From Rhodothermales bacterium (lineage in GTDB: Bacteria; Bacteroidota; Rhodothermia; Rhodothermales; Bin80): a stretch of DNA of 64,000 bases. Positions 1,812 through 62,667 of the stretch are shown here, in pieces; positions within the stretch are counted from its first letter, which is position 1, and each line of letters opens with the position of its first letter. Made by a program: the position numbers and the translations under genes. The stretch lies in NCBI GenBank assembly GCA_958296045.1, contig CATQHT010000003.1, forward strand, positions 2,192,501 through 2,256,500. The letters are read 5' to 3'. Under the pieces are notes generated by a model. The model was not told where the DNA came from. It saw nothing but the letters and a program-made list of their open reading frames with translations, and did not search any database.

Positions 1812-1893
1812 ATCGTTGGGGGTGCCTTCTGCACGGAGGCTGAGATAAGACCCTTGGAACCTGATCCGGCTTGCACCGGCGTAGGGAATACGA
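1812..1893 (+). promoter_or_regulatory. TPP (THI-element) riboswitch
   Basis: The conserved thiamine pyrophosphate aptamer core is directly visible: ggggtgc, then ggctgagataagaccc, then gaacctgatccgg, then accggcgtaggga. An intrinsic terminator lies 16 nt downstream and the receptor start codon about 75 nt downstream. This is the layout of a transcription-attenuating OFF switch: with TPP bound the terminator should form and silence the receptor gene. Confidence 0.95.
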
Positions 1894-1908
1894 GTTTGCC
1901 ATGGCATT

Positions 1909-1943
1909 AGGCCGCCTCACACAGATGTGGGCGGCCTTTTTTG
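1909..1943 (+). terminator. Riboswitch expression-platform terminator
   Basis: The perfect stem aggccgcc/ggcggcct, with loop tcacacagatgtg, is followed at once by a run of T (cttttttg). It sits between the TPP aptamer and the receptor gene, so it is the likely regulatory terminator of that riboswitch. Confidence 0.9.
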
Positions 1944-1966
1944 TATCACTCTCTAGTGCACAAGCC

Positions 1967-13777: not shown

Positions 13778-15676
13778 GTGTGTCACGTACAGGCATGGAG
13801 GTGAAAGTATGAGGTAGGAAAAAGAGCCTGATAACTACGTGAGGGATGGAGGTAGGCCCTCCGCAGCCGCCAGTCAGGTGGAGGCTGCAAACCGCCCACT
13901 GCTGCTGCGCTTAAGAGGCGTGGTGGTTAGCGAGCTGGGAAAAGGCGGGGAAGTACCCCGTCAGGTACGAGTCGTCGAAGTCGAACGAAAGTGAACCGTC
14001 GAAGACGTGTCGAAAGCGATAGACGATGTCAAAACCAGGGTAGGAATCCGTCCCTGGGACGAGGTCGGAGGGGTCCTGAAGCTTGTCCGATCGGCATCCG
14101 GCATATAGGCGGCGAGAGCGCGACTCAGGCCCTTGCGTGGAACGTGAGAACCTGTCGGAGTGATGCTAAGGGAGCCTGGCAAGTGGGCAATACCCACAAG
14201 TCATTGAGTACCAATGCACTCCACAGGGGCGGACTGTCTCGTAGTAGTGATGATGATCCTGTAATGGGATCGGAGCGAAGGGGACAGCTCGTGCGGCTAA
14301 CATCATCAGAGCAACTCAAAAGGGAAGGACTCAGATGAAGAAAGCAAAGCCGTTTCCAGTCTCCCAGGCTCAGGTCTGGGAGGCATGGCGACGAGTGAAG
14401 AGGAACCAAGGTGGAGCGGGAGTGGATGGCATGACCCTTGCCGACTTTGAAGCTAATCTAGAGGACAACCTCTATAAGCTTTGGAATCGTATGGCATCGG
14501 GTAGCTACCACCCCAAGCCGGTACGACGGGTGGACATACCCAAGGCGGATGGGAGTACTCGTCCGTTAGGGATTCCCACGGTGACGGATCGGATTGCCCA
14601 GATGGTAGCGAAGATGGCGTTGGAGGAGGATATGGAACGCGAGTTTCATGAAGACTCGTACGGTTATCGGCCGGGAAAGTCAGCGCATGATGCCCTGAAG
14701 AAGACACGTAAGCGCTGCTGGGACAGAGCGTGGGTGTTGGATCTGGATATCAAGGCGTTCTTTGACACGATTGACCATACGCTGTTGATGCGTGCTGTAC
14801 GGAAACATACGAGCGAGAAGTGGCTGCTGCTATATATTCAGCGGTGGTTGACGGCTCCGGTCGTGATGCCCGATGGCGAGGAGGCAGAGCGGACCATAGG
14901 CACCCCGCAAGGGGGCGTAATCAGTCCGATTCTGGCGAATCTGTTTCTGCACTACGCCTTTGACAAGTGGATGACGATCTATTTTCCGACGATACCCTTT
15001 GAGCGGTACGCGGACGACATAGTCTGTCACTGCCATACGGAGCGCCAAGCACGCAATCTATGGGCAGCACTGGAGCGCCGCTTTGCGAAGTGTGCGCTGT
15101 CGCTGCATCCTGAGAAGACCCGGATAGTGTACTGCAAGCAGTCCAACCGGAAGGGTAACTATCCTGACGTCTCGTTCACCTTCTTAGGCTTTACGTTTAG
15201 GCCACGAAGAGTGAAATCCCGAGGCGGAAGGCTATTCACAGGGTATACGCCTGCCATCAGCCGAAAAGCCGCAAAGGCCATTCGGCAAGATGTGCGTAGC
15301 TGGCGCCTGTGTCGGCAGACCTCAAGCAGGATGGAGGATCTCGCACGGCACTACAATGCTAAGATACGCGGATGGCTGAACTACTACGGGGCCCACAGCA
15401 AGTGGATCCTGTACTATGTGCTGCAATCCATAGATGGCCATCTGGTGGCATGGGCCCGACGCAAATACAAGCGGTTGCGGCGCAGCAAGCGCCGCGGATA
15501 CCGCTGGCTAAGGTCTATGGCCTACCGAAACCCGCACCTGTTTGCTCACTGGCCGGAGCTCCACGGACCCTCTTTATTCAAATCCAGGCGGCTGCACGAG
15601 AAGAGCCGTGTGAGGTGAGAGTCTCACGCACGGTTCTGTGAGAGCCTGGGGGTGAGAGTCCCCCAGGCTACTTGAC
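13778..15676 (+). mobile_element. Complete group II intron with RT/maturase
   Basis: 1,899 bp. It begins GTGTGTCAC (group II consensus GUGYG) and ends CTACTTGAC. Domain V is at 15603-15636 (34 nt, gagccgtgtg...cacggttc) and domain VI is the gcctggggg/cccccaggc hairpin. The ribozyme domains I-III occupy the 550 bp before the RT gene, which sits in domain IV. The ends are fixed because excision restores the host frame exactly. A 73-bp piece of the same 5' end recurs at 19356, and diverged relatives occur at 35543 and 53446. Confidence 0.92.
14335..15618 (+). CDS. ltrA: Group II intron reverse transcriptase/maturase
   Basis: 427 aa. RT motifs in order: RNQGGAGVDGMT (RT0/1), SYGYRPGKSAHDAL, DLDIKAFFDTIDH, GTPQGGVISPILANLFL, the catalytic FERYADDIV (YADD), and the RT7 region LGFTFRPR. 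The maturase (X/thumb) region follows with RGWLNYYG. No C-terminal HNH endonuclease domain is present, so retrotransposition would be endonuclease-independent or use host nicks. Its stop codon (tga, 15616-15618) falls inside domain V of the intron. Confidence 0.93.
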   Translation: MKKAKPFPVSQAQVWEAWRRVKRNQGGAGVDGMTLADFEANLEDNLYKLWNRMASGSYHPKPVRRVDIPKADGSTRPLGIPTVTDRIAQMVAKMALEEDMEREFHEDSYGYRPGKSAHDALKKTRKRCWDRAWVLDLDIKAFFDTIDHTLLMRAVRKHTSEKWLLLYIQRWLTAPVVMPDGEEAERTIGTPQGGVISPILANLFLHYAFDKWMTIYFPTIPFERYADDIVCHCHTERQARNLWAALERRFAKCALSLHPEKTRIVYCKQSNRKGNYPDVSFTFLGFTFRPRRVKSRGGRLFTGYTPAISRKAAKAIRQDVRSWRLCRQTSSRMEDLARHYNAKIRGWLNYYGAHSKWILYYVLQSIDGHLVAWARRKYKRLRRSKRRGYRWLRSMAYRNPHLFAHWPELHGPSLFKSRRLHEKSRVR

Positions 15677-30237: not shown

Positions 30238-31512
30238 TGGGCCGGTGGTCAATTTCGCCTGCACTCGTGGGTGCGCAACACCCCTGCGGATGCAGCTCAC
30301 GAGCACGATTCTGTACACTCCCCAGACCTGCCACAGCATCCAACAGCGGATGCCGCTCAGCGTCCGGGTGAGCAGACACGTGTTGCGCGTACGATAGGCT
30401 CGCCGCCCATCCATCAGGGCAAAGGCCCCGATACAACACGTTCAACGCCGCGTTAACGTCGCGGCACTGGGTCTTTCCGCACATGGCACAACGATGCTTC
30501 CTGTCAGCCAGGCGTAGCCTTTCCTCCGGCTTATGATGGCAAGCGCTGCATCTCTGCGTTGTGTCGTTCGGCGGAACCAGCTCCACCTTGCCGCCAAGCA
30601 AAGCGGATTTGTACTTCAACAGCTGTACCAATTCGTACAGCCCTTGCGCGCGCATCGATCGGTTCAGCCCCGTCTTGCGGCTGCCACCGGCGCGTGTCAT
30701 GCATCCTACTTTCAGGTCTTCCAGAAACAGATTCGCGGATCGCTTGACGACGTCGGCAGCCACCTCGTGGCGGTACCCGCGGTTGCGTCTTACTACGCGC
30801 TCGGCCTCCTTGCGCCAAGCACCGAACCGCTTTCGGCGCAGACGCGTGCCTTTCTTCGTTTTAGCAGCCCGACGCCGCAAAGCGTCCCTGCGGGGCTCAC
30901 TCTTTTTGATGGGCGCGTAGCTCTTTCCATCCGCCAGCGTCGCGATGGCCTTGCAGCTAAGGTCCACGGCCATCGGCGTGTCTGCGCAGCTGTTCTCTGG
31001 CGCCTCGGGGCGCTCGTACACGACTTGTATCGTGTATTCGGTACCTAGCGACGACCGCACGATGCGCACGAACTTGCAGCCGTAGCGCTTGATCAACCCG
31101 CGCCGATCGGTGAAACGGACGTACCCGACGCCCTTGATGCGAACGCGATAGTCTTAGCGCCTGACGCGTTCGGGCTTTCGTAGCAGCCTGAAGCTCTTCA
31201 CCAAGTCGCCGCTGAAACGCGGCGGGCGCGCATGGTGCTTATTGAAAAGCGCTTGTAACCCTCCGTCACGCCCCTGATCACAGAACGCTGCTCAGCCACG
31301 CCGAACTCGAGATTGCGCTCATCGGCTCTGCGGGCGGCCGTCCAGAGCTTCGTCAACGTGAAATAGCTCGGATGCTTCTCTGCTACCTTGTGTGCGTTGC
31401 GGCATTGTTCGACCGCCCAGTTGCGGACCCACTTACCGTTAACGAACATCCGCCGCAGGCGGGCATAGCCCGCCTTCTTCGTATAGCAGCGGTATGTCTG
31501 GCTCAGTAGCAA
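30238..31512 (-). pseudogene. tnpB: tnpB (RuvC-like RNA-guided nuclease), broken copy
   Basis: Reads from TTG 31512: LLSQTYRCYTKKAGYARLRR, then WVRNWAVEQCRNAHK. One A is missing near 31244-31248 relative to the copy at 50.2 kb, causing a frameshift, and a TAA (31154-31156) replaces CAA. The rest is open: the first catalytic Asp region reads AVDLSCKAIATL, the Glu region LFLEDLKV, then the zinc ribbon CSACHHKPEE...CAMCGKTQCRDVNAAL. The C-terminus ran to the element end before the IS256 insertion. Any guide RNA would come from the left end, next to the insertion. Confidence 0.85.
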
Positions 31513-31514
31513 GG

Positions 31515-31709
31515 CTACGGGCGCTCTCGTGGGTCGGCTTTCAGTCGTGCCGTCTGGGCAGCTCGGATCCGCTTCGAGTACGCAATCAGGGCCTCATCGA
31601 CAACAGCTCGGCGAAAGACGTCCGTGTACGGCGTTCCTTCGCGCAGGGCCAGACTGAAAGCAGCGTAAAGGGAGCTACGTGAAACGTAAATAAGGACTAT
31701 TTCCGACAT
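31515..31709 (-). CDS. Small RHH-like protein of the tnpB element
   Basis: 64 aa, at the 5' side of tnpB in both copies of the element (also 62356-62550). The sequence SLYAAFSLALREGTPYTD, VFRRAVVDEALIAYSK looks like a ribbon-helix-helix DNA-binding or antitoxin-like protein. Its stop lies just upstream of the tnpB start in another frame. Differences between the two copies are mostly conservative, suggesting it was under selection. The fold is inferred by eye. Confidence 0.5.
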   Translation of the reverse strand: MSEIVLIYVSRSSLYAAFSLALREGTPYTDVFRRAVVDEALIAYSKRIRAAQTARLKADPRERP

Positions 31710-32237
31710 TCAGGCAGGCGGGAGCGGTTATCGGCGTGCATAGCATCTACGCAGTTACGGAGCCGATGGTTCCGATCAGGATAAGTTAATATGTCGCCAA
31801 CCCGTAGCCCAGCATACCAGCATGTTGGACTTGTGACGCGTACTGACCAGTGATGAATCGCATCATCCCGTCGTCAATTACGTATTCCGTGGCGTATGAG
31901 CGAGTAAAGCCGGCCTTTAGCACGTTGGGCCTCTTACACTCCAGACAGTAATAAACGACCTCGGTTGGTGCCAGGGGGGAAAAGACAATGTCCATCCTTC
32001 CCTGATCGGTGTCCGACGAGTCGCCGAGCTCCACAAGCTGGGTGTCTATCCGGAGTGGTAGCTTTGCCGCATCCCGACTTTGCCTTAGTCGGCGGCAAAA
32101 CTCGTCGGTTGTAGGATCCTCTCGTGCGTCTGGCGCAAGCGGGAGCATCGTCTGCCACATGCACCGCGGGAGCGCTAGTATGTCGGGCACGTACGATGTG
32201 ATCAGATCGCGCCAGTCGTCGGGTGACCCAAGCGATC

Positions 32238-49211: not shown

Positions 49212-50433
49212 GGGCTGGCGAAAAATTAACTATTTGCCTAGTTGGCCGGTGGTCAATTTCGCCTGCACTCGTGGGTGCGCAACACCCCTGCGGATGCAGC
49301 TCACGAGCACGATTCTGTACACTCCCCAGACCCGCCACAGCATCCAACAGCGGATGCCGCTCAGCGTCCGGGTGAGCAGACACGTGTTGCGCGTACGATA
49401 GGCTCGCCGCCCATCCATCAGGGCAAAGGCCCCGATACAACACGTTCAGGGCCGCGTTAACGTCGCGGCACTGGGTCTTTCCGCACATGGCACAACGATG
49501 CTTCCTGTCAGCCAGGCGTAGCCTTTCCTCCGGCTTGTGATGGCAAGCGCTGCATCTCTGCATTGTGTCGTTCGGCGGAACCAGCTCCACCTTGCCGCCA
49601 AGCAAAGTGGATTTGTACTTCAATAGCTGCACCAATTCGTACAGCCCTTGCGCGCGCATCGATCGGTTCAGCCCCGTCTTGCGGCTGCCACCGGCGCGTG
49701 TTATGCGTTCTACCTTCAGGTCTTCCAGAATCAGATTCGCGGATCGCTTAACGACGTCGGCAGCCACCTCGTGGCGGTACCCGCGGTTGCGTCTTTCTAC
49801 TCGCTCGGCCTCCTTGCGCCAAGCACCGAACCGCTTTCGGCGCAGACGCGTGCCTTTCTTCGTCTTAGCAGCCCGACGCTGCAAAGCGTCCCTGCGGGGC
49901 TCACTCTTTTTGATGGGCGCGTAGCTCTTTCCATCCGCCAGCGTCGCGATGCTCCTGCAGCCAACGTCCACGGCCATCGGTGTGTCTGCGCAGCTGTTCT
50001 CTGGCGCCTCGGGGTGCTCGTACACGACTTGTATCGTGTATTCGGTACCCAGCGACGACCGCACGATGCGCACGAACTTGCAGCCGTAGCGCTTGATCAG
50101 CCCGCGCCGATCGGTGAAACGGACGTACCCGACGCCCTTGATGCGAACGCGATAGTCTTGGCGCCTGACGCGTTCGGGCTTTCGTGGCAGCCTGAAGCTC
50201 TTCACCAAGTCGCCGCTGAAACGCGGCGGGCGCGCATTGTGCTTATCGAAAAAGCGCTTGTAACCCTCCGTCACGCCCCTGATCACAGAACGCTGCTCTG
50301 TCACGCCGAACTCGAGATTGCGCTCATCGGCGTTGCGGGCGGCCGTACAGAGCTTCGTCAATGTGAAATAGCTCGGATGCTTCTCTGCTACCTTGTGTGC
50401 GTTGCGGCATTGGTCGACCGCCCAGTTGCGGAC
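49212..50433 (-). pseudogene. tnpB: tnpB 3' exon (copy 2)
   Basis: Codes for VRNWAVDQCRNAHK through to the C-terminus. RuvC-like residues: Asp in MAVDVGCRSIATL, Glu in ANLILEDLKV, Asp in TQCRDVNAALNVL; zinc ribbon Cys pairs in CSACHHKPEE and CAMCGKTQC. The frame is open here, unlike copy 1. Its N-terminal part (QTYRCY... ...FVNGKW) is at 62270-62353, and joining the two at the intron boundaries gives the uninterrupted sequence ggtaagtgg|gtccgcaac seen in copy 1. The apparent 90-residue extension upstream of VRNWAV is intron sequence, not protein. Confidence 0.88.
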
Positions 50434-50840
50434 ATCGCGGTAGCCCCAGGGTTTCCCTTGGGGCCCCGCACAGATCCGTGCGTGCGCGTTGACGCACACG
50501 GCTCCTCCCGCAGGTCGCGCTGTCGCGCATGACGTTAGGAAGTGGGGATACCCACCTCCAGCCGTAAGCGGTACACCTGCGCCCCGACTGTGACTCTGAG
50601 TCCACAGCCATTGGACAGATTCACAACATCCGACCCAGAGTCCGGCATGAATCTGGCTTCCCGCTTTCCCCTTGGGTGCGACCCTTGGCTCCACCGGCTC
50701 CTCCCTTGGGTCGCACCGGCGTGCATGGCGACATATCGTTGATTAGGCCAGGGGTGTTTGATCTTGAGCGCAGGCCATCACCATGTAATCATGGTCTCCA
50801 GCTTACTCCATGTCATGCGATCCTTCTGCGAACGTCTGCG
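50434..50840 (-). mobile_element. Outer group II intron A, 3' part
   Basis: Contains the last codons of an RT gene (cgcagacgttcgcagaag onward), domain IV, domain V at 50473-50504 (gagccgtgtgcg...cacggatc) and domain VI, ending ctaccgcgat next to the tnpB exon. The RT portion is about 95 percent alike to the intact RT at 51415. Its upstream part continues at 53447 after the inserted intron. Confidence 0.85.
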
Positions 50841-51358
50841 GTCAAGTAGCCCGGGGGAATCTCACCCCCAGGCCCTCACAGAACCGGACGTGCGCGTCTC
50901 CACGCATCCGGCTCTTCCCGGTCCGTCAGACGGTTGTTACCAACCATCCAGAGCTGTCTCCCAATGGATCGTCCCGTTTCCGGTTGTCCTATAGATCAAC
51001 AACAGACCAGGGTACTCCCTTCGCTCCACCTCCATTACAGAGGGTTCAGCACTACTACGAAGTACTCCGCCCCTGTGCCCCGCTTCGGTACTCAGTCGCT
51101 TGAGGTATTTCCTCTTGCGAGTCTCCCTTAACATCAGGACGACAGGTTCCCACGTTCCGCACAAGAGCCTGATCCGACCTCTTGCCGCTTCTATGCCGGA
51201 GGCCGCCAGGGCAGTAAGCAGATCTCTCCCTGACTGCTCCCGGGGCAATCATCCAACCCCGGTTTTGACCTCGTCTAAGGATGTTTCGACACGTCATCAG
51301 CGGTTCGCTTGCGCTCAACTTGAATGGATCACACCTGACCCGATCTTTGCCGGGCCTT

Positions 51359-53284
51359 CTCGCGGTAGGGACCCGGGTTTCCCCGGGCCCCCCGCACAGA
51401 TCCGGACGGGCGCGTTAACGCATCCGGCTCCTCCCTTGGGTCGCACCGGCGTGCATGGCGACATATCGTTGATCAGGCCAGGGGTGTTTGATCTTAAGCG
51501 CAGGCCAGCACCATGTAACCATGGTCTCCAGCTTACTCCATGTCATGCGATCCTTCTGCGAACGTCTGCGGATGACCTTCATCCATTCACGCTTCAGGCG
51601 GGTAAAGAACCTTCGTAGAAACACAAAGCTGGTGGGAACAGCGTAGTAGTTCAGCCATCCCCCAAGTACGCGCCCCAGCCACTGGGCTGTAGCGTGTAAC
51701 GGTGCATGCATCCTACGGCGAAGCTCCTGACACAGGCTTTTCAGCTTTCGTGCCATGCGCTTGCCCACCGGTTTCCGTCCCAATCCGAAACGACCACGGC
51801 GAGTCTTACGGCAATAATGCGTAAAACCCAGAAAGTCAAACGTCTCGGGACGACCCTCACCTCGGCTGCGGCGATTCACCGCCGCAAACCGCCCAAATTC
51901 CAACAAGCGAGTCTTCTTCGGATGCAGGGATAAGCCAAATTTGGCCATCCGCTGCCCTAAATCTCTTAGAAAACGCTGCGCGTCGTGCTTCCGCTGGAAG
52001 CCTACCACAAAGTCGTCCGCATAACGGACAAGGCAGGTTTCTCCCCACGCCACCCGCACGCGCCATCGCTTATCATACCACAGGTCCAGGGCATAATGCA
52101 GGTACACATTCGCCAGTATCGGCGAGATAACCGCGCCTTGCGGGGTGCCCATCGGACTGTCCCGCAAAACACCGGCCTCCATTACGCCTGCCTTGAGCCA
52201 TTTGATGATCAGCCAAATGACCCGTTTGTCCGCTATGCGGTGCTCCAGAAACCGAACCAACCAGCCCTGGTCCACCATGTCAAAGAAAGAACGTATGTCC
52301 GCATCAACAATCCAGTTGACCTTCGTACGCCCGATCGCATAGGCCAACGCGTCCAACGCATCATGCGCCTTTCGCTTGTACCTAAACCCATAGCTGAAGT
52401 CAAGAAACTCCTCCTCATAGATCGGGAGCAGGATACAGATCGCCACCGCAGCCTGGACAATCTTGTCCTCCAGTGCCGCAATGCCGAGCGGTCGTGTACT
52501 GCCATCTGGCTTGGGTATCTCAACCCGCCTGGACGGCATCGCCCGGTACGCTCCGCTGTGCACGCGGTCGTGTAAGTCAGCCAAACGCGCTGTCAATCCA
52601 ACCTCGTACTCCGCCCATGTCACGCCGTCCACGCCTGGCGCTGCCTTCCTCTTTAAACGATAGAAGGCATGCCGCAGCGATTTCACCGTGATATGGTGCA
52701 GAAGCGTCGTGAGCTGCTCCTTGGGTTTCCGCTTCACGAATTGTCGCAACCGGTCCGCTCCTTGTTGCACCGCTACCCGATCCCGCGCCCGGACAGTGTT
52801 AGAGTTTTCCAGTTTCCCCTCAGGTACAGGACTTGGCTCCGGCAGCTCCGCCGGGCGGCTACGCCCCTTGTTCGCTGCTTTCTTAGCTACTATTCCTGTA
52901 TCGGACTTCTCCATGTCGTTCATCTCCAGTTACGGGGATTAACCCTCTCTTTCGCGACCCTGAACGACTCCAGGGTGACACGGAGACCTCCCAGGTCCCG
53001 GCGTAGTACGTACGTGCGTGCCTGGGTTCTTAGACACCGTGGGACCCTCCTTCGCCTCACCATTGGCGGCAAAGAAGATGTTGCCTTCGACCAAAGAAAA
53101 AGCCTCGGCATCCCAGACTATAGCGTTTTCGGTGCTCATTAGCCCTGCCCACACGCGCCTCTACCGACGCTTCGCCTGTACCCTCGCGAGTACCGACGCA
53201 CGGCTCGAGGTGATGTGCAGATGGTTAGTCTTTCACAACGGGGGACTTGCACCCCCTGTACTATCGCCAGTTAGCCTGGCGCAC
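51359..53284 (-). mobile_element. Inner group II intron B, complete, inside intron I
   Basis: About 1,926 bp. Starts GTGCGCCAGGCTAACTGG at 53284 and ends ctaccgcgag near 51359, with domain V at 51399-51430. It lies in domain I of intron I, between ggtaagaa and aaggcccgg; the intron at 13778 shows the uninterrupted arrangement. The 5' flank ggtaag is shared with the 5' flank of intron A in tnpB (ggtaagtgg), consistent with the same EBS/IBS targeting. Introns A and B are the same species. Confidence 0.88.
51415..52923 (-). CDS. ltrA: Group II intron reverse transcriptase/maturase (intron B)
   Basis: 502 aa, intact. RT motifs: APGVDGVTWAEYE, SYGFRYKRKAHDALDAL, DADIRSFFDMVDQ, GTPQGAVISPILANVYL, the catalytic VRYADDFVVGF (YADD), and the maturase region GGWLNYYAVPTSFVF. 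Without an obvious HNH endonuclease. Distinct class from the 427-aa RT at 14335. The stop (taa, 51415-51417) lies in the loop of domain V. This is the only intact RT in the nest and could act in trans on intron A. Confidence 0.92.
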   Translation of the reverse strand: MNDMEKSDTGIVAKKAANKGRSRPAELPEPSPVPEGKLENSNTVRARDRVAVQQGADRLRQFVKRKPKEQLTTLLHHITVKSLRHAFYRLKRKAAPGVDGVTWAEYEVGLTARLADLHDRVHSGAYRAMPSRRVEIPKPDGSTRPLGIAALEDKIVQAAVAICILLPIYEEEFLDFSYGFRYKRKAHDALDALAYAIGRTKVNWIVDADIRSFFDMVDQGWLVRFLEHRIADKRVIWLIIKWLKAGVMEAGVLRDSPMGTPQGAVISPILANVYLHYALDLWYDKRWRVRVAWGETCLVRYADDFVVGFQRKHDAQRFLRDLGQRMAKFGLSLHPKKTRLLEFGRFAAVNRRSRGEGRPETFDFLGFTHYCRKTRRGRFGLGRKPVGKRMARKLKSLCQELRRRMHAPLHATAQWLGRVLGGWLNYYAVPTSFVFLRRFFTRLKREWMKVIRRRSQKDRMTWSKLETMVTWCWPALKIKHPWPDQRYVAMHAGATQGRSRMR

Positions 53285-53446
53285 TTCTTACCTGCTTACC
53301 ACCACGCCTCTTAAGCGCAGCAGCGGTAAGTGGTTTGATGCCTCCGTCTGCACGGCGGCACCGAGGGGCCGACCCTCATCTCCTATGCAGCATAGCTGCG
53401 GGAAGGTTACTACATATCAGTATCCCTCCGCGCCTTCGTGGCGCAC

Positions 53447-53540
53447 GATGATCTTCATCCATTCACGCTTCAGGCGGGTAAAGAATCTTTGTAGGAACAT
53501 AAAGCTGGTGGGAACAGCATAGTAGTTCAGCCACCCCCGA
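53447..53540 (-). pseudogene. RT gene fragment of outer intron A
   Basis: 94 bp coding LNYYAVPTSFMFLQRFFTRL-like sequence through EWMKII, which continues at 50840 across intron I. Similarity to the intact RT ends abruptly near 53540, so the rest of intron A's RT gene and domains I-III are missing here. The intron's 5' end is at 62166-62269. Confidence 0.8.
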
Positions 53541-54067
53541 AGGGCCGTCGTGTGTCTCGGACGGATTGGTGGCACCTCAAATGTAGCTTCTCATTGCCTG
53601 TTTCCGTCCACCAACCGCCTAACTCACAGCCCGCGTGCGCGTAGCCTACCACAAAACAAGATCCGTTCCCCCACCGAACGGCCCAAATCTAGAATCGCTG
53701 GTGTGCTCGCAAATAGAGGCAAAGGATAGCGAAGAAAGTAGGGAGGAGCCGTTCCATCGAAGGGAGGGCGAAGCCCGACCGGAGATGGAACGGCGTCGGT
53801 CAGACTGAAACAGCGCTTTGGGCCCCAAAAGCTTCGACGCCAGCGGGGCAAGCGTACCCCTACCCCTTGCCCTTATGCAATCATCGCAGTAATGATGCGA
53901 TGGTCAGCCCATTCTCGCACCAAATCACATGTTGCAGTTCGTTGTTAAATGGGCCCGCTTAAATGCGCCCCTGTTTACTCGGAAATTTAGACGCATGTCG
54001 TATTTTGGCTACGATCTGCTTCCGTGAATTCATCCAGGGTACTGGGAGAATGGAGCAAGTGACGAAG
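53541..54067. other. Region upstream of hsdM with a long hairpin
   Basis: No gene is supported. An 11-bp perfect inverted repeat (gccgttccatc at 53748-53758, gatggaacggc at 53784-53794) encloses a second small stem (gggc-gaa-gccc). It could be a structured RNA, an IS end or a regulator binding site. The hsdM frame can be extended upstream to 53963 but without conserved sequence. Confidence 0.45.
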
Positions 54068-55651
54068 ATGGCAAACAGTCGAATCGATAACGGCGTAACG
54101 ACGGGCTACGAGGCCGAGCTGTGGGCAACGGCCGATTCACTCCGCGGCTCGATGGATGCTGCCGAGTACAAGCACGTCGTGCTCGGCCTCATCTTCCTCA
54201 AGTACATCTCGGACGCCTTCGAAGAGCGTCGCACAGCGGTGCTGACTGGGCGGGGAGAAGATGCGGCAGAGGACCGCGATGAATACGTCGCAGAGAATAT
54301 CTTTTGGGTGCCGCCGAAGGCCCGCTGGCTGCATCTGAAGGCCCAGGCGAAGCAATCAACCATCGGCCAGACCATCGATCGGGCCATGGCCGCGATCGAG
54401 CGTGACAACCCGGTGCTGAAGGATGTGCTACCCAAGGACTACGCGCGGCCTGCCTTGGACAAGCAGCGTCTTGGCCAGTTGATCGACATGATCGGGAACA
54501 TCCGCATCGGGAACACTGATGCCCGCTCTCGAGAGGTGCTCGGCCGTGTCTACGAGTACTTCCTTTCGCAGGCCGCCAGCGCTGAGGGCAAGCAGGGCGG
54601 CGAGTTCTATACCCCGCGCTGCGTCGTCAAGCTGCTCATCGAAATGCTGAAGCCCTACCAGGGGCGGGTCTATGATCCCTGCTGCGGATCCTCGGGCATG
54701 TTCGTGCAGGCTATCGAAAGTGTTCGTGCCCACGCCAACGGCGGCCAGGCATGTGGCGACATCTCGATCTACGGCCAGGAGTCGAATTACACGACGTGGC
54801 GGCTCGCGAAGATGAACCTAGCTATGCGAGGGATCGAGGGACAGATTGCCCACGGCGACAGCTTCCACAACGACCACCATATGGATCTGAAGGCCGATTT
54901 CATCCTCGGCAATCCCCCCTTCAACGTCTCGAACTGGGGCGGCGAACGACTGGTTGAGGATCAGCGTTGGGTTTACGGCGTTCCCCCGAAGCGCAACGCC
55001 AACTTTGCTTGGGTGCAGCACATGGTCCACCACTTGGCACCAAGGGGTGTCGCGGGGCTCGTGCTCGCCAATGGATCGATGTCGTCAAGTCAGCCCAACG
55101 AGGGAAAGATCCGGAGAAACCTGGTAGAATCGGATCTGGTGGAATGCATGGTCGCGCTGCCAGGCCAGCTTTTCTACTCGACCCAGATTCCGGCCTGCCT
55201 GTGGTTGTTGGCGCGTGGACGCAAGCGGCGTGAAGAAGTCCTTTTTGTCGATGCCCGCCCACTTGGCCGGATGATAAGTCGCAGACATCGCGAGCTGACC
55301 GAAGCTGACATCGACCGTATTGCCAACACTTTCCGTATGTGGCGTAAAGGATCAAAGGCCGTCGGTTACGAAGATATTCCAGGCTTCTGCAAGAGTACCA
55401 CGCTGGACGAAATCCGCAAGCACAGCCATGTGCTGACACCAGGACGTTATGTGGGAACCAAAGCAGCACCCGACGACGATGAGCCGTGTGAGGCGCAAAT
55501 GCACCACCTTGTCGAGACACTGCGAACACAGCAAGCGGAAGGAGCGCGACTCGATGCTGCCATCGCTGATAATCTTAAGATGCTGGGATTCGACCCACCA
55601 CATAGTCCAGACACTGCCAGCAATAACATTCTATCACCCACCCGGCAATAA
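54068..55651 (+). CDS. hsdM: Type I restriction-modification methyltransferase subunit
   Basis: 527 aa. N-terminal HsdM helical domain ([36 protein letters not shown]), then the SAM-binding motif [14 protein letters not shown] (about residue 225) after [11 protein letters not shown], and catalytic NPPFN (about 295). N6-adenine methylation as a complex with HsdS. The ATG at 54068 is chosen ([10 protein letters not shown]); an ATG at 54050 is an alternative. Followed after 15 bp by the HEPN gene. No hsdR is present in the window. Confidence 0.95.
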
Positions 55652-55666
55652 GCCGGCCGCGGCGCA

Positions 55667-56083
55667 ATGATCGACTACGATAAGTTCCGACTGTTCCTCC
55701 TACGGCTGGAGGAGCAGAACGAGAATCATAAACAGCAGAACCCGGTGCTCTCCGACTTGGATCGTGAGGCCATTGCGGAATCGGTTATCCAGCGCTTCGA
55801 AACCTGCTATGATTACCTGTGGAAGGTGCTGAAGCGGCATCTGGCCGAGGAACTGGGTCTTGCAGATCTGCCCAACAGTCCCAAGCCGATCTTAAGGCTG
55901 GCATTCAAAAACGATCTGTTAGACGTACCCTTAGCTCAATGGTTTCGATACGCGAAGGCCCGGATCAGTACATCACACGACTACGACGGCAGGAAGGCGA
56001 AGGCATGTCTTGCACTGGTACCTGATTTCATAGACGACGCTATCGGTCTCTACCGGACCATGAGTGGAAAGACGTGGGAGTAG
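55667..56083 (+). CDS. HEPN-domain protein (nucleotidyltransferase substrate-binding type)
   Basis: 138 aa, all-helical HI0074-like family. It carries the HEPN RNase motif R-x4-H as RISTSHDYDG. HEPN-MNT pairs act as toxin-antitoxin modules in which the MNT nucleotidyltransferase AMPylates and silences the HEPN RNase. The stop overlaps the start of the next frame, which encodes the MNT partner. Placement inside a type I restriction operon is a recurring arrangement and suggests it guards or regulates the system. Confidence 0.85.
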   Translation: MIDYDKFRLFLLRLEEQNENHKQQNPVLSDLDREAIAESVIQRFETCYDYLWKVLKRHLAEELGLADLPNSPKPILRLAFKNDLLDVPLAQWFRYAKARISTSHDYDGRKAKACLALVPDFIDDAIGLYRTMSGKTWE

Positions 56084-56658
56084 GCCAGACGATAGATATC
56101 ACCACCGAAGAGCGCAAGACTATTCAATTTCTGCTTGAACGACATCTTCCCAGCACGCCTGCTTGGGTTTATGGCTCCCGGGCGAAGTGGACCTCTTGTC
56201 CGAAATCCGATCTCGACCTCGTGGTGTTCGCGGCACCTGAACACCAACAACAGGTTGGTACCTTACGAGAGGCATTCGAAACCAGCGACCTGCCATTCCT
56301 GGTAGATCTGTTTGTATGGCGAGACTTACCTGAAGCATTCAAGAAACAGATTGAAGCGGATCACGTGGTGATTCAACCACGGGCCCTGTTCGAGAAGAGC
56401 TACGCGCAATCAGGCATTGCGGCTGAACAGAACTGGACTACGTTCGGCAAATGTAGCGTGCTAGTATGCGATACAGCCTTACCATCCAACTTGGGGCCAG
56501 TTCCGCACATAGGCCTTGAGCACATTGGGAAAGGAACATTATCCTTCTGTTCAGCGACAATTAGAATTGCGTTTGGCGACAACTAGAATTGCGGGGGAAG
56601 GAATCGGTGAGATGCGTATCTACGGGCAGGATTGTTCACCTGTCAACACGCATTCATT

Positions 56659-58146
56659 ATGGTTACCGATCAGCAAGTCAAGCTCCTGTTCAAGCTCGTT
56701 AACGGGAAAAAGAGGGCACGGTCAACGGCTGCGGCGAAGGCTGGTATGTCTGAGAACACCGCACGCAAGTACCTGCGTGCGGGCAAACTGCCGAGTGAGA
56801 TGAAGACCGAGCGAACGTATCGCACGCGTCCCGACGCGTTTGCGGAAGTATGGGGCGAAATACTGCCCTATTTGGAGGAGAACCCTGGGCTGGAGGTCAA
56901 GGCTGTGTTCGAGCACTTGCAGCGCCGCCACCCTGGCCAGTTTCAGTCGAGTCAGCTGCGCACATTGCAGCGGCGTGTGAAGCGGTGGCGAGCCGAAGCG
57001 GGTCCTGGGAAGGAGGTCTTTTTTGACCAGGCATACGAACCTGGTGAGCGGGCGCAGTCGGACTTCACCTGCATGAACAAGCTGGGCGTAACCATCCAAG
57101 GCCAGCCGTTTAAGCATATGCTGTTTCACTTCGTTTTGCCCTACTCCAACTGGGAGGCGGGAACGATCTGCAAGTCTGAGAGCTTTGAGGCGCTAAGTGA
57201 GGGGCTGCAGAATGCGCTCACGCAGTTGGGTGGTGTGCCCCGGCTGCACCAGACCGACTCTATGAGCTGTGCGGTACGCAATCTAAAGCGTACCGAGAAG
57301 GAGGGAGCCCCCTTTACCGACCGATATGGTGCTCTGATGCGGCATTACGGGATGGAGGCGCAGCACACGCAGCCACGGCGCCCCAACGAGAACGGGAAGA
57401 TTGAGCAGAGTCACTTTCGGCTCAAGCGCGCGATCGGTAACCAGCTCGCCTTGCGGGGCAGTTCGGACTTTGAAAGTAGGCAAGAATATGAGGCATTTCT
57501 GGCCAAGGTGTTTGCGGGGCGCAATGCTAATCGAGAGGCCCGTCTCAAAGAGGATCAGGCCAAGCTGCGCTCGTTACCCGCGCGGCGCCTGAACAGCTAT
57601 CAGCGCAGACGTATGCGCGTGAGCAAGGGCGGGTTGGTCCGCGTGAAGAAGAACTGGTATTCGGTTAATAGTCGGCTGATCGGGGAGCTGGTGGATGTAC
57701 GGATTTATGCGGAGCGGATCGAGGTGTGGTATGCGCAGCGGCGCGTGACGCAGATGCCACGGCTCCACGGCACAGGTAAGGCTCGGGTCGAATACCGCCA
57801 TGTGATTGACATGCTGGTGCGCAAGCCTGGAGCCTTTGCTCATTATCGGTACAAGGCCGATCTATTTCCATCTCATACGTTTCGCATGGCGTATGACGAG
57901 CTAAAGCGTGTCCACTCGAGCTCGCTTGCGGCCGACAAGCAATACCTGCGGGTGCTGCATCTGGCGGCCAAAGAGAGCGAAGCCGCCGTATCTGCTGCGC
58001 TTAGCCAGTTGCTCAATAGTACGCAGCCGCTTACGCTCGTTTCGGTAAAGACGCTCATGAATCAAGAGATTGAGGAGCCATCGGTGCAGGTTTGTGCGGT
58101 GGATCTGAGCGCCTATAATAGCCTGTTACACCACGAAGCGCAATGA
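56659..58146 (+). CDS. istA: IS21 transposase IstA
   Basis: 495 aa. HTH region (AAAKAGMSENTARKYLRAG), DDE core with Asp in RAQSDFTCMNKL, Asp in LHQTDSMSCAV and Glu in RPNENGKIEQSHFRLK, and the C-terminal barrel (VKKNWYSVNSRLIGELVDV). The ATG at 56659 (MVTDQQVKLLFKL) is the family start. A different IS21 subgroup from the element at 16390. Its stop overlaps the original istB start (ATGA). Confidence 0.93.
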   Translation: MVTDQQVKLLFKLVNGKKRARSTAAAKAGMSENTARKYLRAGKLPSEMKTERTYRTRPDAFAEVWGEILPYLEENPGLEVKAVFEHLQRRHPGQFQSSQLRTLQRRVKRWRAEAGPGKEVFFDQAYEPGERAQSDFTCMNKLGVTIQGQPFKHMLFHFVLPYSNWEAGTICKSESFEALSEGLQNALTQLGGVPRLHQTDSMSCAVRNLKRTEKEGAPFTDRYGALMRHYGMEAQHTQPRRPNENGKIEQSHFRLKRAIGNQLALRGSSDFESRQEYEAFLAKVFAGRNANREARLKEDQAKLRSLPARRLNSYQRRRMRVSKGGLVRVKKNWYSVNSRLIGELVDVRIYAERIEVWYAQRRVTQMPRLHGTGKARVEYRHVIDMLVRKPGAFAHYRYKADLFPSHTFRMAYDELKRVHSSSLAADKQYLRVLHLAAKESEAAVSAALSQLLNSTQPLTLVSVKTLMNQEIEEPSVQVCAVDLSAYNSLLHHEAQ

Positions 58147-58943
58147 AGACACTGACCACCGCGCAGCTGGACCGTGCGCTGCGTGCAGGCTAGAAGGAGC
58201 TTCGTTTGCCGAGTATGCGCGACGGCTACCGGGATAGGGCGGACTTGGCTCGACGGGAGTCTTTGAGCTTTGAACGGTTCTTGTGGGAACTGGTCGAGAC
58301 GGAGGTGCACACCCGCCGCAACAACCGGATACAGCGCTGGCTCCGGGAATCCGGGCTACCACTGGAGAAAACCATGGACACGTTTGACCGGGGTCGGCTG
58401 CCAGTTCGAATCGATCATCATGTGAGCGTGCTCCTAGAAGGTGGCTTTCTGGATCGCAAGGAGAATGTGCTGGCCTTCGGTCCTCCAGGCAGCGGAAAGA
58501 CCCATTTGCTGTGTGCGCTGGGCCGGGAGCTCATCTTTCAGCACCGCCGCGTGAAGTTTTATCGCTGCGGCATGCTCGTCCAGCAACTACTCGCCGCTAA
58601 GCGTGACCTGCGATTACCGCAGATGCTGAAGCGGCTGAGGCGATACGAGGCGCTGATCCTGGACGACATCGGCTACGTACAGCACAGCCGCGAAGAGATG
58701 GAGGTCTTGTTCCACTTGCTGGCCGAACGCTACGAACGCGGCAGCATCCTGATTACCAGCAATCTCGCCTTCAGCCACTGGGAAAGCATCTTCAAGGATC
58801 CGATGACCACCGCCGCTGCCATAGATCGCATCGTGCATCACAGCGTGATCCTAGAGCTCAACCTGCCCAGCTATCGACTGGAAGTATCCAGGCAGCGGCA
58901 ACAAGCCCAGGGTAAGCCTAATGCTAACGCAGCAGCCCCTTAG
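58143..58943 (+). pseudogene. istB: IstB helper ATPase with an in-frame amber codon
   Basis: From ATG 58143 the frame reads MKTLTTAQLDRALRAG, then TAG (58191-58193), then KELRLPSMRDGYRDRADLA and on to 58943. Walker A GPPGSGKTHLLCALG, Walker B ALILDDIGYVQ, sensor SILITSNLAFSHW are intact. The stop codon is followed directly by AAGGAG and then a TTG (58206) and ATG (58215) in frame, so translation could restart and give about 245 aa lacking only the first 20 residues. Whether it is dead or re-initiated cannot be told from sequence. Confidence 0.8.
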
Positions 58944-59531
58944 CGGTTCCATGGAGCCGTCGCGAGCGCTTAGCCGTCGCGGCGGGCTCTGCCCTTACCT
59001 AGTGCTGATCCAGATGAGATACTCGCACCCAATAGTGGATCTGAGCGCCTATGACGGCCTGCAGCGTCCATGGAACAGGTTGACCGCGATACCGCCGAGC
59101 CGAAAGGTCGGTTCACCGGGAGTCTGTCCGGTGTCTCCGAGCTGTTCATGCCGTCTGCCGAAGCATCGGATCAACAAGCAGCGGAATTGCGGATTCCCGC
59201 GTCAACATGCCCAGCAAAATCCCTTGAGAACGCAGCAGCTCCTTAGTGGTTCCATGGGGCCGTCGCGAGCGGCTAGCGGTCGCAGCGGGTCTGCCCTTAC
59301 CTAGTGCTGATCCAGATGAGATACTCGCACCCAATAGTGGATCTGAGCGCCTATGACGGCCTGCAGCGTCCATGGAACAGGTTGATCGCGATACCGCCGA
59401 GCATACAGCTTCGTTCACCGCGAGTCTGTCCGGTGTCTCCGAGCTGTTCATGCCGTCTGCCGAAGCATCGGGTCAATAAGCAGCGGAATTGTGGATTCCC
59501 GCTGGAGAAAATCTCGGGGGTCTGTGATCAA
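58926..59531 (+). repeat. Tandem ~303-bp repeat in the IS21 tail
   Basis: Unit one starts aacgcagcagccccttag at 58926, unit two aacgcagcagctccttag at 59229. Each contains a decayed echo of the istA-istB junction (gtggatctgagcgcctat, as at the end of istA; gctt-cgttcaccg, as at the start of istB). Past the second unit, 59500-59590 resembles istB sequence (cgctggagaaaa, catcatgacctgagcgtg). Confidence 0.75.
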
Positions 59532-59603
59532 ACGCGGCCGCCCACTCGCATCCATCATGACCTGAGCGTGTACTTGGAAGGCGGCTGCCGGGACCAGGGA
59601 GCA

Positions 59604-60205
59604 CACAGGACCCCCTTCAGTCCACCGAACAGCGGTGAGAGGTCCTTGCTGTGTTCTGGGTTGCACGGTTCCGGATCGCCGTATGATGCTCAGGGACACG
59701 TGAGAAAGGCGCTTACGACGGTCTCAGCCCGGACACCCTGGTACGCCTCCAGCACAGGCGTGAGCGCACCGAGGGCCTGTACGATGGCTACAGAGACCGC
59801 ACGAAAGCGATCCCGCGAGGAAACGGTATCGACCAAACGGGGCAGCCTACGGACACCCGCCCGCCCCGTTGCCTTCAGCCAGCCGGAAACCAACGGCACG
59901 CCTATGGTGGGGGTGACGGCCGCCCTAAACAGGCTCCAGCAGCACTACCACAGCGGATGACTGGAAGCCTCCAAACAACGCCAATCAAACAAGGAAATAC
60001 CTGAATCATATGTCTCCCATGCAGCAGTATCTTTACCCCGAACGAACGAGGTACAGACCCCTGAACGCCTACGAAATCGGACAGACTCCCCGGCTTCGCA
60101 GCTCGCTGCTCCGCCGGGGAGTCTCCTCCTCCCGAAACGCAATTCTAATTGTCGCTGGTCTCAATTCTAATTGTCGCTGGTCTCAATTCTAGTTGTCGTT
60201 GGACA
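59604..60205 (+). other. Conserved non-coding tail of the IS21 element
   Basis: About 600 bp nearly identical to 19429-20003 in the deleted copy. Reading frames are not conserved between the copies (frameshifts and stops differ), so it is not evidently coding. Near the end, gactccccggcttcgca...gctccgccggggagtc forms a strong hairpin (about 60084-60124), then the terminal repeats follow. Confidence 0.55.
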
Positions 60206-61570
60206 ATCCTTCCTCGGTTACGGAACAGCGAACGATGTCACTAGTGCTAAATCCCGATTTCAGCGAGGAGACATTCTGTTTGGAAAGGTTCGACCACACT
60301 TCCGCAAGGTAGCCAGAGCTTCATTTGACGGTGTTTGCTCCACGGACATCTGGGTTGTAAGATCCTCACGTAAGGTAGACACGGGTTTTCTGTACTATCT
60401 AATGGCCTCACAGGAATTCGTTGATGCGGCTACTCAAGGGGCCGAGGGTACGCGGATGCCTCGTGCTAAGTGGGAATTCGTATCCCAGTTAAGGGTATTA
60501 CTTCCACCGCTCTCTGAACAACGAAAAGCAGCTGATATTCTGGGAGCGCTGGACGACAAGATCAACCTGAATCGTCGGATGAATAAAACGCTGGAGGCGA
60601 TGGCGCGAGCGCTGTTCAAATCCTGGTTCGTCGATTTCGATCCGGTCCGAGCCAAAATGGAGGGCCGGGACACAGGCTTACCGCAAGATATCACCGACCT
60701 GTTCCCCGACCAGCTTATTGACTCGGACATTGGTGAGATTCCACAAGGCTGGAAGGTGGTCTCGCTTGACTCAATCGCTCGATTCCACAACGGGCTCGCC
60801 CTTCAGAGACTCCATCCCGCCCAGAACGAAGCACAATTGCCTGTGGTCACGATCGCCCAGCTACGGGCTGGAGAGGCAAACAGCGGAGAGTGGGCGAGCG
60901 CCACGATTAAGCCCGAATCCGTCATTGAGGACGGAGATGTCGTCTTCTCTTGGTCTGGGGGCCTCTTGATCAAGATGTGGTGCGGCGGGCGAGCCGCCTT
61001 GAACCAGCATCTCTTCAGGGTCACGTCATCGAGATATCCCAAGTGGTTCTACCTGCATACCCTGTTGTTTCATTTTTCGAAGTTTCGGCGGATTGCTCAG
61101 GATAAAGCCACCACGATGGGACCTATCAGACGGCACCACCTGACGGAAGCCCTGTGCGTTGTGCCTCCCGACGGCGTGATCGCGGGACTTTGCGATACGT
61201 TCGGATTCATACTGGAGCGGCACGTTACTAATGAACTTGTGGGCCGCACCCTTGCCGCTCTTCGCGACACGCTACTCGCTAAGCTCATTTCGGGTGAAAT
61301 CCGCGTACGGGACGCCGCGAGGGTTTTGGAGTCCACTACATGAGCCTCTTGCAAAAAACCCGAAAAACGGCAAGTACTCCCTCCGCAGGCGCGGGAGAAG
61401 AGGTGGCGCCTCGGTCGTGGGTATCGTAATGATGTTCACCAGAATCGTTGACTAACGCGGTGAGGTTGACCTCAAAAAGACAGATTTCGGGCCTTAGCGA
61501 TGACAATTACGCATACCTTTCCCACTACACGGGGCACTACAACCGCAATTCTGTGCGCCGGTGAACCCAG

Positions 61571-62165
61571 TTAGCACACAAGGCGCGCCATTTGGTCGAT
61601 CGTCAACGCGAGTATGCCGAACCCAAGATGACATAGCACCTTCGCATGACCACGTACGCGAATATGGCGACCGCCATATTCGTCCTTGAGACGACCAAAG
61701 ACGTGCTCGACAGCCGAACGCTCGTGGTAGCGTACGCGCTCTGGTGGTACCCATCCGGCCGCACGCTGCGCCTTCGCCTCACGCTTTTTCGCCGCCTTAC
61801 GTGCGCGTGTACGCGGGTTCGCATCAATGATCGGCACATGCCCAAGACGCTCGCTGTGAAGGCGTATCTCCTTCGCATCATAGGCGCTATCCATCACATC
61901 ATACAAAGTCGTGACCCGCTCCGCAGACTTCGTAGCTAAGGGAATGGCCACCTGACTATCATGCACCGACGCAGATGTTACCAGGTAGCTGATTGGTACG
62001 CCCCCGTCGGCCACATCCGCGTGCAGCTTATAGTCGTTCCAGCTGTGCCGGTAACCCTTAGCATTGCGCTTAGCGCCTCGGTTACACTCCCCGGGTGCGT
62101 AATCCGACGAATTCGTGCACCCATTCCGATCCAAGCTGGACGGGTAATCCGAGGCAAGCTGGACA
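61571..62165 (-). pseudogene. IS5-type transposase remnant
   Basis: The C-terminal part of a DDE transposase: DYPSSLDRNGCTNSSDYAPG, RHSWNDYKLHADVADGG, VMDSAYDAKEIRLH (catalytic Asp), and RYHERSAVEHVFGRLKDEYG (Glu region) with CHLGFGILALTIDQ. The N-terminal part is missing, replaced at 62166 by a group II intron 5' fragment. The element end probably lies near 61345 (gagcctcttgcaaaa), immediately after hsdS, where hsdR would be expected. Confidence 0.7.
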
Positions 62166-62269
62166 CCCGCGCGGGTACCAACGCACGGCTCGAGGAGATG
62201 CGTGGATGGTTAATCCTTCACATCGGGAGACTTTCACTCCCTGTACTGGCACCAGTTAGCCTGGCGCAC
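62166..62269 (-). mobile_element. Outer group II intron A, 5' fragment
   Basis: Starts GTGCGCCAGGCTAACTGG at 62269 and follows the first ~104 bases of intron B (53284 downward), including ccatc and ctcgagccgtgcg. It sits exactly at the tnpB exon boundary (ggtaagtgg). The rest of intron A is found at 53447-53540 and 50434-50840. Confidence 0.85.
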
Positions 62270-62353
62270 CCACTTACCGTTTACGAACATCCGCCGCAGG
62301 CGGGCATAGCCCGCCTTCTTTGTATAGCAGCGGTATGTCTGGCTCAGGAGCAA
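62270..62353 (-). pseudogene. tnpB: tnpB 5' exon (copy 2)
   Basis: Encodes QTYRCYTKKAGYARLRRMFV and NGKW, matching copy 1 (31.44-31.5 kb). The remainder of the gene is 11.8 kb away at 50433. Confidence 0.85.
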
Positions 62354-62355
62354 GG

Positions 62356-62550
62356 CTACGGGCGCTCTCGTGAGTCGGCTTTCAGGCGTGCCGTCTGGGC
62401 AGCCCGGATCCGCTTCGAGTACGCAATGAGGGCCTCATCGACAACGGCTCGGCGCACGACGTCCGTGTACGGCACCACTTCGCGCCGGGCAAGACCGAAA
62501 GCAGCGTAAAGGGAGCTACGTGAATCGCAAAGAAGGACTATTTCCGACAT
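62356..62550 (-). CDS. Small RHH-like protein of the tnpB element (copy 2)
   Basis: 64 aa homologue of the frame at 31515-31709, with SLYAAFGLARREVVPYTD, VVRRAVVDEALIAYSK. Open in both copies, while tnpB itself is broken in both. Possible DNA-binding regulator of the element; function unknown. Confidence 0.5.
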   Translation of the reverse strand: MSEIVLLCDSRSSLYAAFGLARREVVPYTDVVRRAVVDEALIAYSKRIRAAQTARLKADSRERP

Positions 62551-62667
62551 TCAGGCAGGCGGGAGCGGTTATCGACGTGCATAGCATCTGCGCAGTTACG
62601 GAGCCGATGGTTCCGGTCAGGCTAAGTTAATATTTCGCCAGCCCTTAGCCTGTCGGGCGGCGCACCC

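Follow-up and report, generated by a model that had tools for sequence, protein, structure and literature searches.

How many group II introns lie inside one another within the tnpB gene on the minus strand of G000:C3:2192501-2256500, and by what route did they come to be there? This 64,000-nucleotide stretch of Rhodothermales DNA, hereafter the window, belongs to the genome labelled G000, and an earlier note on it had described three nested introns, with the same species at the outermost and the innermost level. The nesting itself is borne out by the analysis presented here, whereas the depth and the order are not: the locus holds, from the outside inward, a remnant of an intron named alpha, a remnant of a second intron, beta (written beta′ below), a third intron, gamma, and another copy of beta, making four levels of which the inner two alone are complete. 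Very probably, this locus is a partly decayed nest that was built by the successive retrohoming of group II introns into introns.

The names alpha, beta, gamma, delta, and epsilon were given in this analysis, and the species are defined via undivided copies. Alpha (706 nt) and gamma (679–680 nt) have no open reading frame (ORF), while a reverse transcriptase (RT) is encoded by beta (1926 nt), by delta (1898 nt), which is a relative of gamma, and by epsilon (1968 nt). L-numbers label the genomic stretches analysed, 53 in total (37 plus 16, three of the latter overlapping earlier ones). The whole of G000 gave 29 RT matches and at least 58 matches to intron domain V (D5), 150 of 357 candidates having been scored.

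Anatomy of the nest in tnpB

Tiled with undivided references, the minus strand reads beta 1619–1714, gamma 1–162, beta 1–1926, gamma 163–680, beta 1714–1861, alpha 434–706, and then tnpB. The two inner levels form a twintron, with a complete beta lying in domain I of a complete gamma and both gamma halves present. The 5′ part of gamma (gamma 1–162, domain I) occupies 53285..53446 and is covered by a match to RF01999 at 53260-53377; the 3′ part (gamma 163–680, the remaining domain I to domain VI (D6), D5 at about 50881-50914) occupies 50841..51358, matches RF00029 at 50841-50916 (59.2 bits), and ends ...CTACTTGAC. Between them, at 51359..53284, lies the 1926-nt beta, which runs from GTGCGCCAGG to CCGCGAG and matches RF02005 at 53025-53249 (169.1 bits). 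Its RT/maturase ORF of 502 amino acids (51415..52923), in which the YADD motif is present, matches TIGR04416 (E 1.5e-103; 346.6 bits against a cut-off of 300) and, in Pfam, RVT_1 only, and its D5 and D6 lie at 51359..51432. The earlier note was right that domain I of an ORF-less intron of 680 nt is interrupted by an intron with an intact RT. The boundary is exact, since gamma with an empty beta site is present in L032, L033, and L002.

Gamma in turn splits an RT gene, as had been proposed, the same site being intact at 51571. What is left of that gene is the outer beta′, reduced to 243 nt (beta 1619–1861) in two pieces, one at 53447..53542 (beta 1619–1714, from tiling and self-comparison) and one at 50694..50840 (about beta 1714–1861, from tiling). 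The second piece is fused to the last 260 nt of alpha (50434..50693), which include D5/D6 (RF00029 at 50434-50506, 40.0 bits), end ...CTACCGCGAT, and abut the tnpB 3′ exon (49244..50433, 96.7% identical to 30240-31428, with OrfB_IS605 and TNB domains). The use of an uninterrupted tnpB copy as a reference proved sound, for at 31428 that copy is unbroken at the point where the last intron boundary meets tnpB. At the join of the two remnants, their alignments share 12 nt, and the last 65 nt of beta′ (its D5/D6) together with about 50 nt of alpha are missing; the fusion was made by a short-homology deletion. Both beta′ and alpha lack their 5′ parts at 50434-53542.

All three D5/D6 hairpins that had been listed fold, and in the order given; the one in beta, with D5 at about 51399-51430, scored 32.2 bits in the genome search, which is below the Rfam gathering score, and yet it folds. 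What does not survive is the outer intron of the earlier note as one complete intron with its own RT, a reading ruled out by the tiling, which resolves it into the fused remnants just described. The outer and inner introns are likewise not simply one species, for the RT pieces come from a second beta but the D5 part beside tnpB from the ORF-less alpha. That the beta RT could serve the outer alpha in the window is nevertheless plausible, because the 5′ domain of alpha is 84–96% identical to that of beta. The intron near 13.9 kb, taken earlier for an uninterrupted copy of the ORF-less one, is a solo delta (13778..15676, plus strand, from tiling, RF01999, and RF00029) that is 72–82% identical to gamma over three pieces; its place as a reference is taken by the undivided gamma copies of L002 (100% over the compared pieces) and L032/L033 (94%).

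The other end of the tnpB insertion lies some distance away on the same strand. A fragment of alpha (alpha 1–111, 98.2% identity) occupies 62158..62269, where its boundary is marked by GTGCGCCAGG starting after ...AAGTGG, and it adjoins the 5′ exon side of tnpB at 62270..62640 (93.1% identical to 31423-31799). Joined by script to 50433-49244, this 5′ part gives a single open frame of 451 amino acids over the junction. About 8.6 kb of other DNA (53543..62157) separates the two alpha ends and stands outside the nest; from the collinear tnpB halves, we infer that this block splits one original alpha copy.

Nests elsewhere in the genome

The window is one of several such loci. No boundary is missing from L002, L004, or L012. 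In L002, gamma lies in beta and beta in alpha (depth three). Depth four is reached in L004 (beta in alpha in gamma in delta), in L012 (beta and alpha both in a gamma that lies in beta, itself in delta), and, with a partial outer intron, in L015, where a partial beta holds an alpha that in turn holds two betas, one of them carrying a delta. The idea of one intron at an outer and an inner level, which fails as described for the window, holds for L012, with beta on two levels. Two tandem deltas lie in a beta within alpha in L001, beta and alpha both lie in a gamma in L008, and L017 has an alpha in an epsilon in a delta whose 5′ part is missing; the host of this epsilon was first read as gamma, and tiling gave delta. 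Simple guest-host pairs are found in L003, L006, L007, L009, and L016.

If a case is counted only when the guest is flanked by host on either side, and tandem guests are taken as one, there are 25 guest-in-host insertions at 13 places, the window included; one-sided cases were left uncounted, namely those in L030, L031, L036, and L201 and, in L205, the second alpha. These insertions amount to 12 guest-host site combinations among the five species, every one of which is both host and guest. Beta enters alpha at 387, gamma at 162, and delta at 163; alpha enters gamma at 162 and 503, epsilon at 62, and beta at about 128; gamma enters beta at 1714 and delta at 857; delta enters beta at 1326; and epsilon enters alpha at about 670 and delta at about 1860. 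In the predicted gamma fold, beta enters at an unpaired position of domain I, and alpha, at 503, enters the 3′ strand of what we read as the domain III helix; the insertion point of epsilon is the end of D5 (GGAT or GGTT, followed by CTGTG). With different flanks, L008 and L012 show the beta-in-gamma junction again, and L002 and L012 the gamma-in-beta junction; the host sequence around gamma in beta is continuous, the junctions lying exactly at the intron ends.

Other insertions and losses were seen in these loci. The alpha of L195 (2097-2743 and 15394-15448, both plus strand) is split at about 650, in D5, by 12.65 kb that bear, on the opposite strand, an alpha with a beta that carries two deltas. 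An insert of 296 nt (L012 8553-8849), with a 4-nt host overlap at its ends, sits in the RT gene of the outer beta, close to the 3′ end of that gene, and about 1.9 kb of other DNA (L006 6799-4895) lies in alpha near position 400, on the upstream side of the inserted epsilon. Truncated copies include L034, L036, L194, L196, L197, L199, and L202-L204.

Site choice by EBS1 and IBS1

Group II introns serve one another as landing sites here, and the target codes are readable for most steps. A domain I loop of alpha and beta contains, inside a conserved frame, a variable hexamer, exon-binding site 1 (EBS1). Taken at the same loop register in every copy, it pairs with the six bases that end the 5′ exon, intron-binding site 1 (IBS1). 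The complete beta of the window has the EBS1 TTCTTT (53093..53098, minus strand), which forms 5 of 6 pairs with TAAGAA at the gamma site, and the gamma around it has GATGAT (51248..51253, minus strand), which forms all six pairs with the ATCATC of the beta′ RT gene. Across 26 distinct combinations of species, EBS1, and IBS1, from 35 copies with tandem copies included, alpha and beta show a mean pairing of 5.1/6 with their own sites, and for the eight EBS1 types the true assignment alone among 40320 permutations reaches its score. The true assignment is also the best (1 of 5040 permutations) for the seven EBS1 types of gamma and delta, a test that excludes epsilon and the L001 tandem delta; run with epsilon and without that delta, the result is 1 of 40320. 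The epsilon EBS1 was chosen via its match, one 6/6 match in 480 nt, where about one is expected by chance when G-T pairs are allowed.

The hexamer also follows the host. Beta carries TTCTTT in gamma (three copies), TCCCAT in delta (two copies), and GCATTT in alpha, and two solo betas also carry GCATTT. The alpha that lies in the beta site of gamma has the EBS1 TTCTTG, with a 6/6 match, and the EBS2 region of gamma-type betas; this alpha (L004 7960-7573), both of whose EBS regions resemble those of gamma-type betas, is a possible recombinant re-aimed at that site. The site-matched hexamers support serial, EBS1-guided retrohoming.

Structure, RT genes, and signs of activity

Domains I to III of the ORF-less intron, on whose folding the proposal of the earlier note turned, are recovered: the gamma/delta alignment folds with 174 consensus pairs, 52 of them with compensatory changes (counted without a shuffled control), and undivided gamma copies match the D1-D4-2 model RF01999 at 111.6–113.9 bits. 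Gamma has the ends GTGCG...GAC, which fit 5′ GTGYG and 3′ AY. Group II introns usually end in AY; all 15 printed beta 3′ ends read ...GCGAG and so depart from it, and empty sites put the boundary after the G.

At E 0.001, the RTs match RVT_1; delta alone also matches a maturase domain, and the matches include no endonuclease domain. The RT genes split by guests are open at full length once the guests are left out, over 504 codons for beta (L001, L002, L015) and 453 for delta (L004), and in the deltas of L012 and L016 the guest lies outside the RT frame, which is open. The ratio of nonsynonymous to synonymous substitution (dN/dS) for the beta RT is 0.16–0.39 in 27 of 28 pairs, the remaining pair being identical; eight of ten beta copies were compared, L004 having been missed by the start pattern and L007 having in-frame stops after a frameshift. 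Identical copies occupy different sites, namely gamma in L032 and L033 and beta in L003 and L014.

These observations bear on the possibility that the nests are mere graveyards of inactive introns, in which splicing and mobility have ended. Such a history would suit the broken state of the outer two introns of the window, the presence of truncated copies, and the frameshift in the L007 beta; however, the identical copies at different sites, the open RT frames, the low dN/dS, and the site-matched EBS1 hexamers indicate recent activity, and we consider it unlikely that the nests are dead throughout.

Formation of the nest

On the reading that we prefer, successive retrohoming, the nest in the window would have been assembled stepwise. 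The ORF-less alpha would have entered tnpB first, followed by the RT-encoding beta′ into alpha, the ORF-less gamma into the RT gene of beta′, and beta into domain I of gamma; finally, a short-homology deletion and a loss accompanied by 8.6 kb of foreign DNA would have ruined alpha and beta′. The same process would have given rise, among the five species, to no fewer than 25 insertions of a guest into a host, spread over 13 places. The RTs of beta and delta, and probably that of epsilon, would provide the reverse transcriptase and maturase, in trans also to alpha and gamma. The removal of a complete nest from RNA would require splicing from the inside out, and the candidates for splicing in the window would be beta and then gamma, with no others.

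Could the nests instead travel as finished composites, such as an alpha with a beta already in it, with no serial homing in place? Beta occupies alpha position 387/388 in six loci (L001, L002, L003, L004, L007, and L015), as such units would predict, and composite retromobility is named as a possibility for twintrons in the accessible part of a published account (PMC2882425). The six host alphas, however, span five EBS1 types, CTTCGT (L001, L002), TCTGTT (L003), TTCTTG (L004), CTGCTT (L007), and TCTATC (L015), yet the betas compared within them (L003, L004, L007, and the second of L015) are 98.9–99.9% identical, and that of L003 is 100% identical to the solo beta of L014. Near-identical betas in alphas of five EBS1 types therefore fit repeated homing, the EBS1 of the betas in alpha fits the site in alpha, and transport as composites appears decidedly unlikely. 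That the nests are artefacts of misjoined intron repeats can scarcely be credited, for although high-copy repeats are prone to misassembly, the junctions coincide exactly with the ends of introns and the host sequence runs on unbroken around them, the window is part of a 2.88-Mb contig, and a nest is present in another genome too (G002, from a sister genus).

Several points nonetheless weigh against in-place serial homing as set out above. The nests were read from assembled sequence, from which the splicing and mobility of nested introns are predicted. The homing of beta′ into alpha is proposed by likeness to the six other loci, as the remnant has no EBS region. Tandem copies at L007 and L015, kept in the test, pair with their neighbours at 2/6 and 1/6, respectively; the alphas of L001, L019, and L022 and the gamma of L008 pair at 4/6; and the flank CTTGAC of the L001 tandem delta, dropped from the gamma/delta tests, is no match for AGATCC. 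EBS2/IBS2 pairing, assessed by eye, is clear for some copies only, and the gamma/delta fold was predicted on the same alignment that was used for the pair counts. Lastly, the RT frame of the host beta in L012 has no normal end (the 296-nt insert), and the L007 beta is frameshifted.

Serial homing of this kind might also be self-sustaining. At close to even chances, though leaning slightly against, we entertain the thought that the five introns make up a cyclic community, in which alpha hosts beta, beta hosts gamma, and gamma hosts alpha, joined by delta and epsilon, with EBS1 tracking the hosts and epsilon aiming at the D5 end. Were this so, every homing event would make the target of the next species; epsilon, seated at the strongly conserved end of domain V, could home into unrelated group II introns, and the catalysis of its hosts would hinge on its own splicing. 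With nests of depth four whose RT frames are open, one can ask how many ribozymes a single transcript can shed one after another, whether several introns share one RT, and by what means EBS1 is re-aimed, questions with a bearing on the origin of intron-rich genomes and of shared splicing machinery.

Other features of the window

Between the two alpha ends, at 53963-61343, lie ORFs that by eye resemble type I restriction-modification genes, together with insertion sequence (IS) elements. At 1808-1905, a thiamine pyrophosphate (TPP) riboswitch overlaps the beginning of a large ORF at 1871-4459, which by eye resembles an outer-membrane receptor.

Relatives beyond this genome

Among the best 80 of 555 loci, a set from which the own genome was possibly excluded, the nine best RT relatives are 62–66% identical and come from metagenome-assembled genomes (MAGs) assigned to several phyla; several of these relatives, to judge by the MAG names, we take to be of sponge origin. 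Close relatives of the beta RT (59–66%) were also seen at L038-L047, in MAGs of seven named groups, or eight with L102. This distribution suggests that beta RT relatives have spread horizontally in a shared habitat. A plasmid search returned seven records with partial matches, covering at most 4% of the query, and a search of viral contigs returned four RT relatives at 42–50% identity.

Within the order, 30 of 114 genomes, G000 included, match the beta RT; within the family, gamma DNA was matched in 15 of 16 genomes and alpha DNA in 11 of 16; outside G000, stretches longer than 400 nt reach at most 74% identity. In G002, contig C183 (5317 bp), whose tiling resembles that of MPNB01000148.1 (Rhodothermaceae bacterium bin80), carries an ORF-less alpha-like intron that is interrupted at about 134–146 by a beta-like one, near the site at 126–130 in L015. 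L210 also looks like a nest, with the guest at about 127, and in L209 an alpha/beta-like intron is entered at about 296–361 by a gamma/delta-like one, a position at which G000 showed no guest. Nesting therefore extends past G000, partly at other sites.

Comparison with known systems

Nested group II intron arrays are, as a kind, already known. The homing of ORF-less and RT-encoding introns into related intron ORFs is reportedly the subject, by its title, of the 2003 paper of Dai and Zimmerly on Methanosarcina acetivorans. The accessible text of the open-licence literature yielded no bacterial nest deeper than two, no mention of this genome, and no match for reciprocity among five species, for sites in the ribozyme core, or for one RT intron re-targeted to three host introns. 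As far as the available description of it goes, one published pipeline overlooks the outer intron of twintrons (PMC8919778).

The comparisons that follow rest on the accessible portions of the papers cited. The plastid twintrons of Porphyridium, in which one inner intron lies in two different outer introns, were claimed as the first of their sort (PMC4476101); there, an inner intron has two outer ones, whereas here beta lies in three outer species, with a separate EBS1 for each. The group II twintron of Trichodesmium is bacterial, and its sequential splicing has been demonstrated (PMC4649490); it is two deep and sits in a protein gene, whereas the nests here are known from sequence. A further case is that of TeI3/TeI4 of Thermosynechococcus elongatus (Mohr et al. 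2010), with EBS-defined families, trans-acting RTs, and twintrons (PMC2882425). ORF-less introns served by the RTs of others (predicted for G000), and entry into intron RT genes and an IS200-type element, are common to both systems; the TeI3/TeI4 twintrons, however, are described as two levels deep, the RT gene of one intron being entered by an ORF-less one, whereas here depth four is reached and RT-encoding introns enter ORF-less ones.

In Methanosarcina acetivorans, up to five group II introns are nested through site-specific homing into introns (PMC4424553, PMC2882425). Repeated site-specific homing into group II introns, and nests of at least three (here L002, L004, L012, and L015, with homing inferred from EBS1), are shared with that archaeal case as described. 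Set against those descriptions, the host here is a bacterium with five species that are mutually host and guest; the guest sites lie also in the ribozyme (domain I, the helix taken for domain III, and the end of domain V), beyond RT genes; and EBS1 is recoded for each host, with some of the nests lying in tnpB or IS genes.

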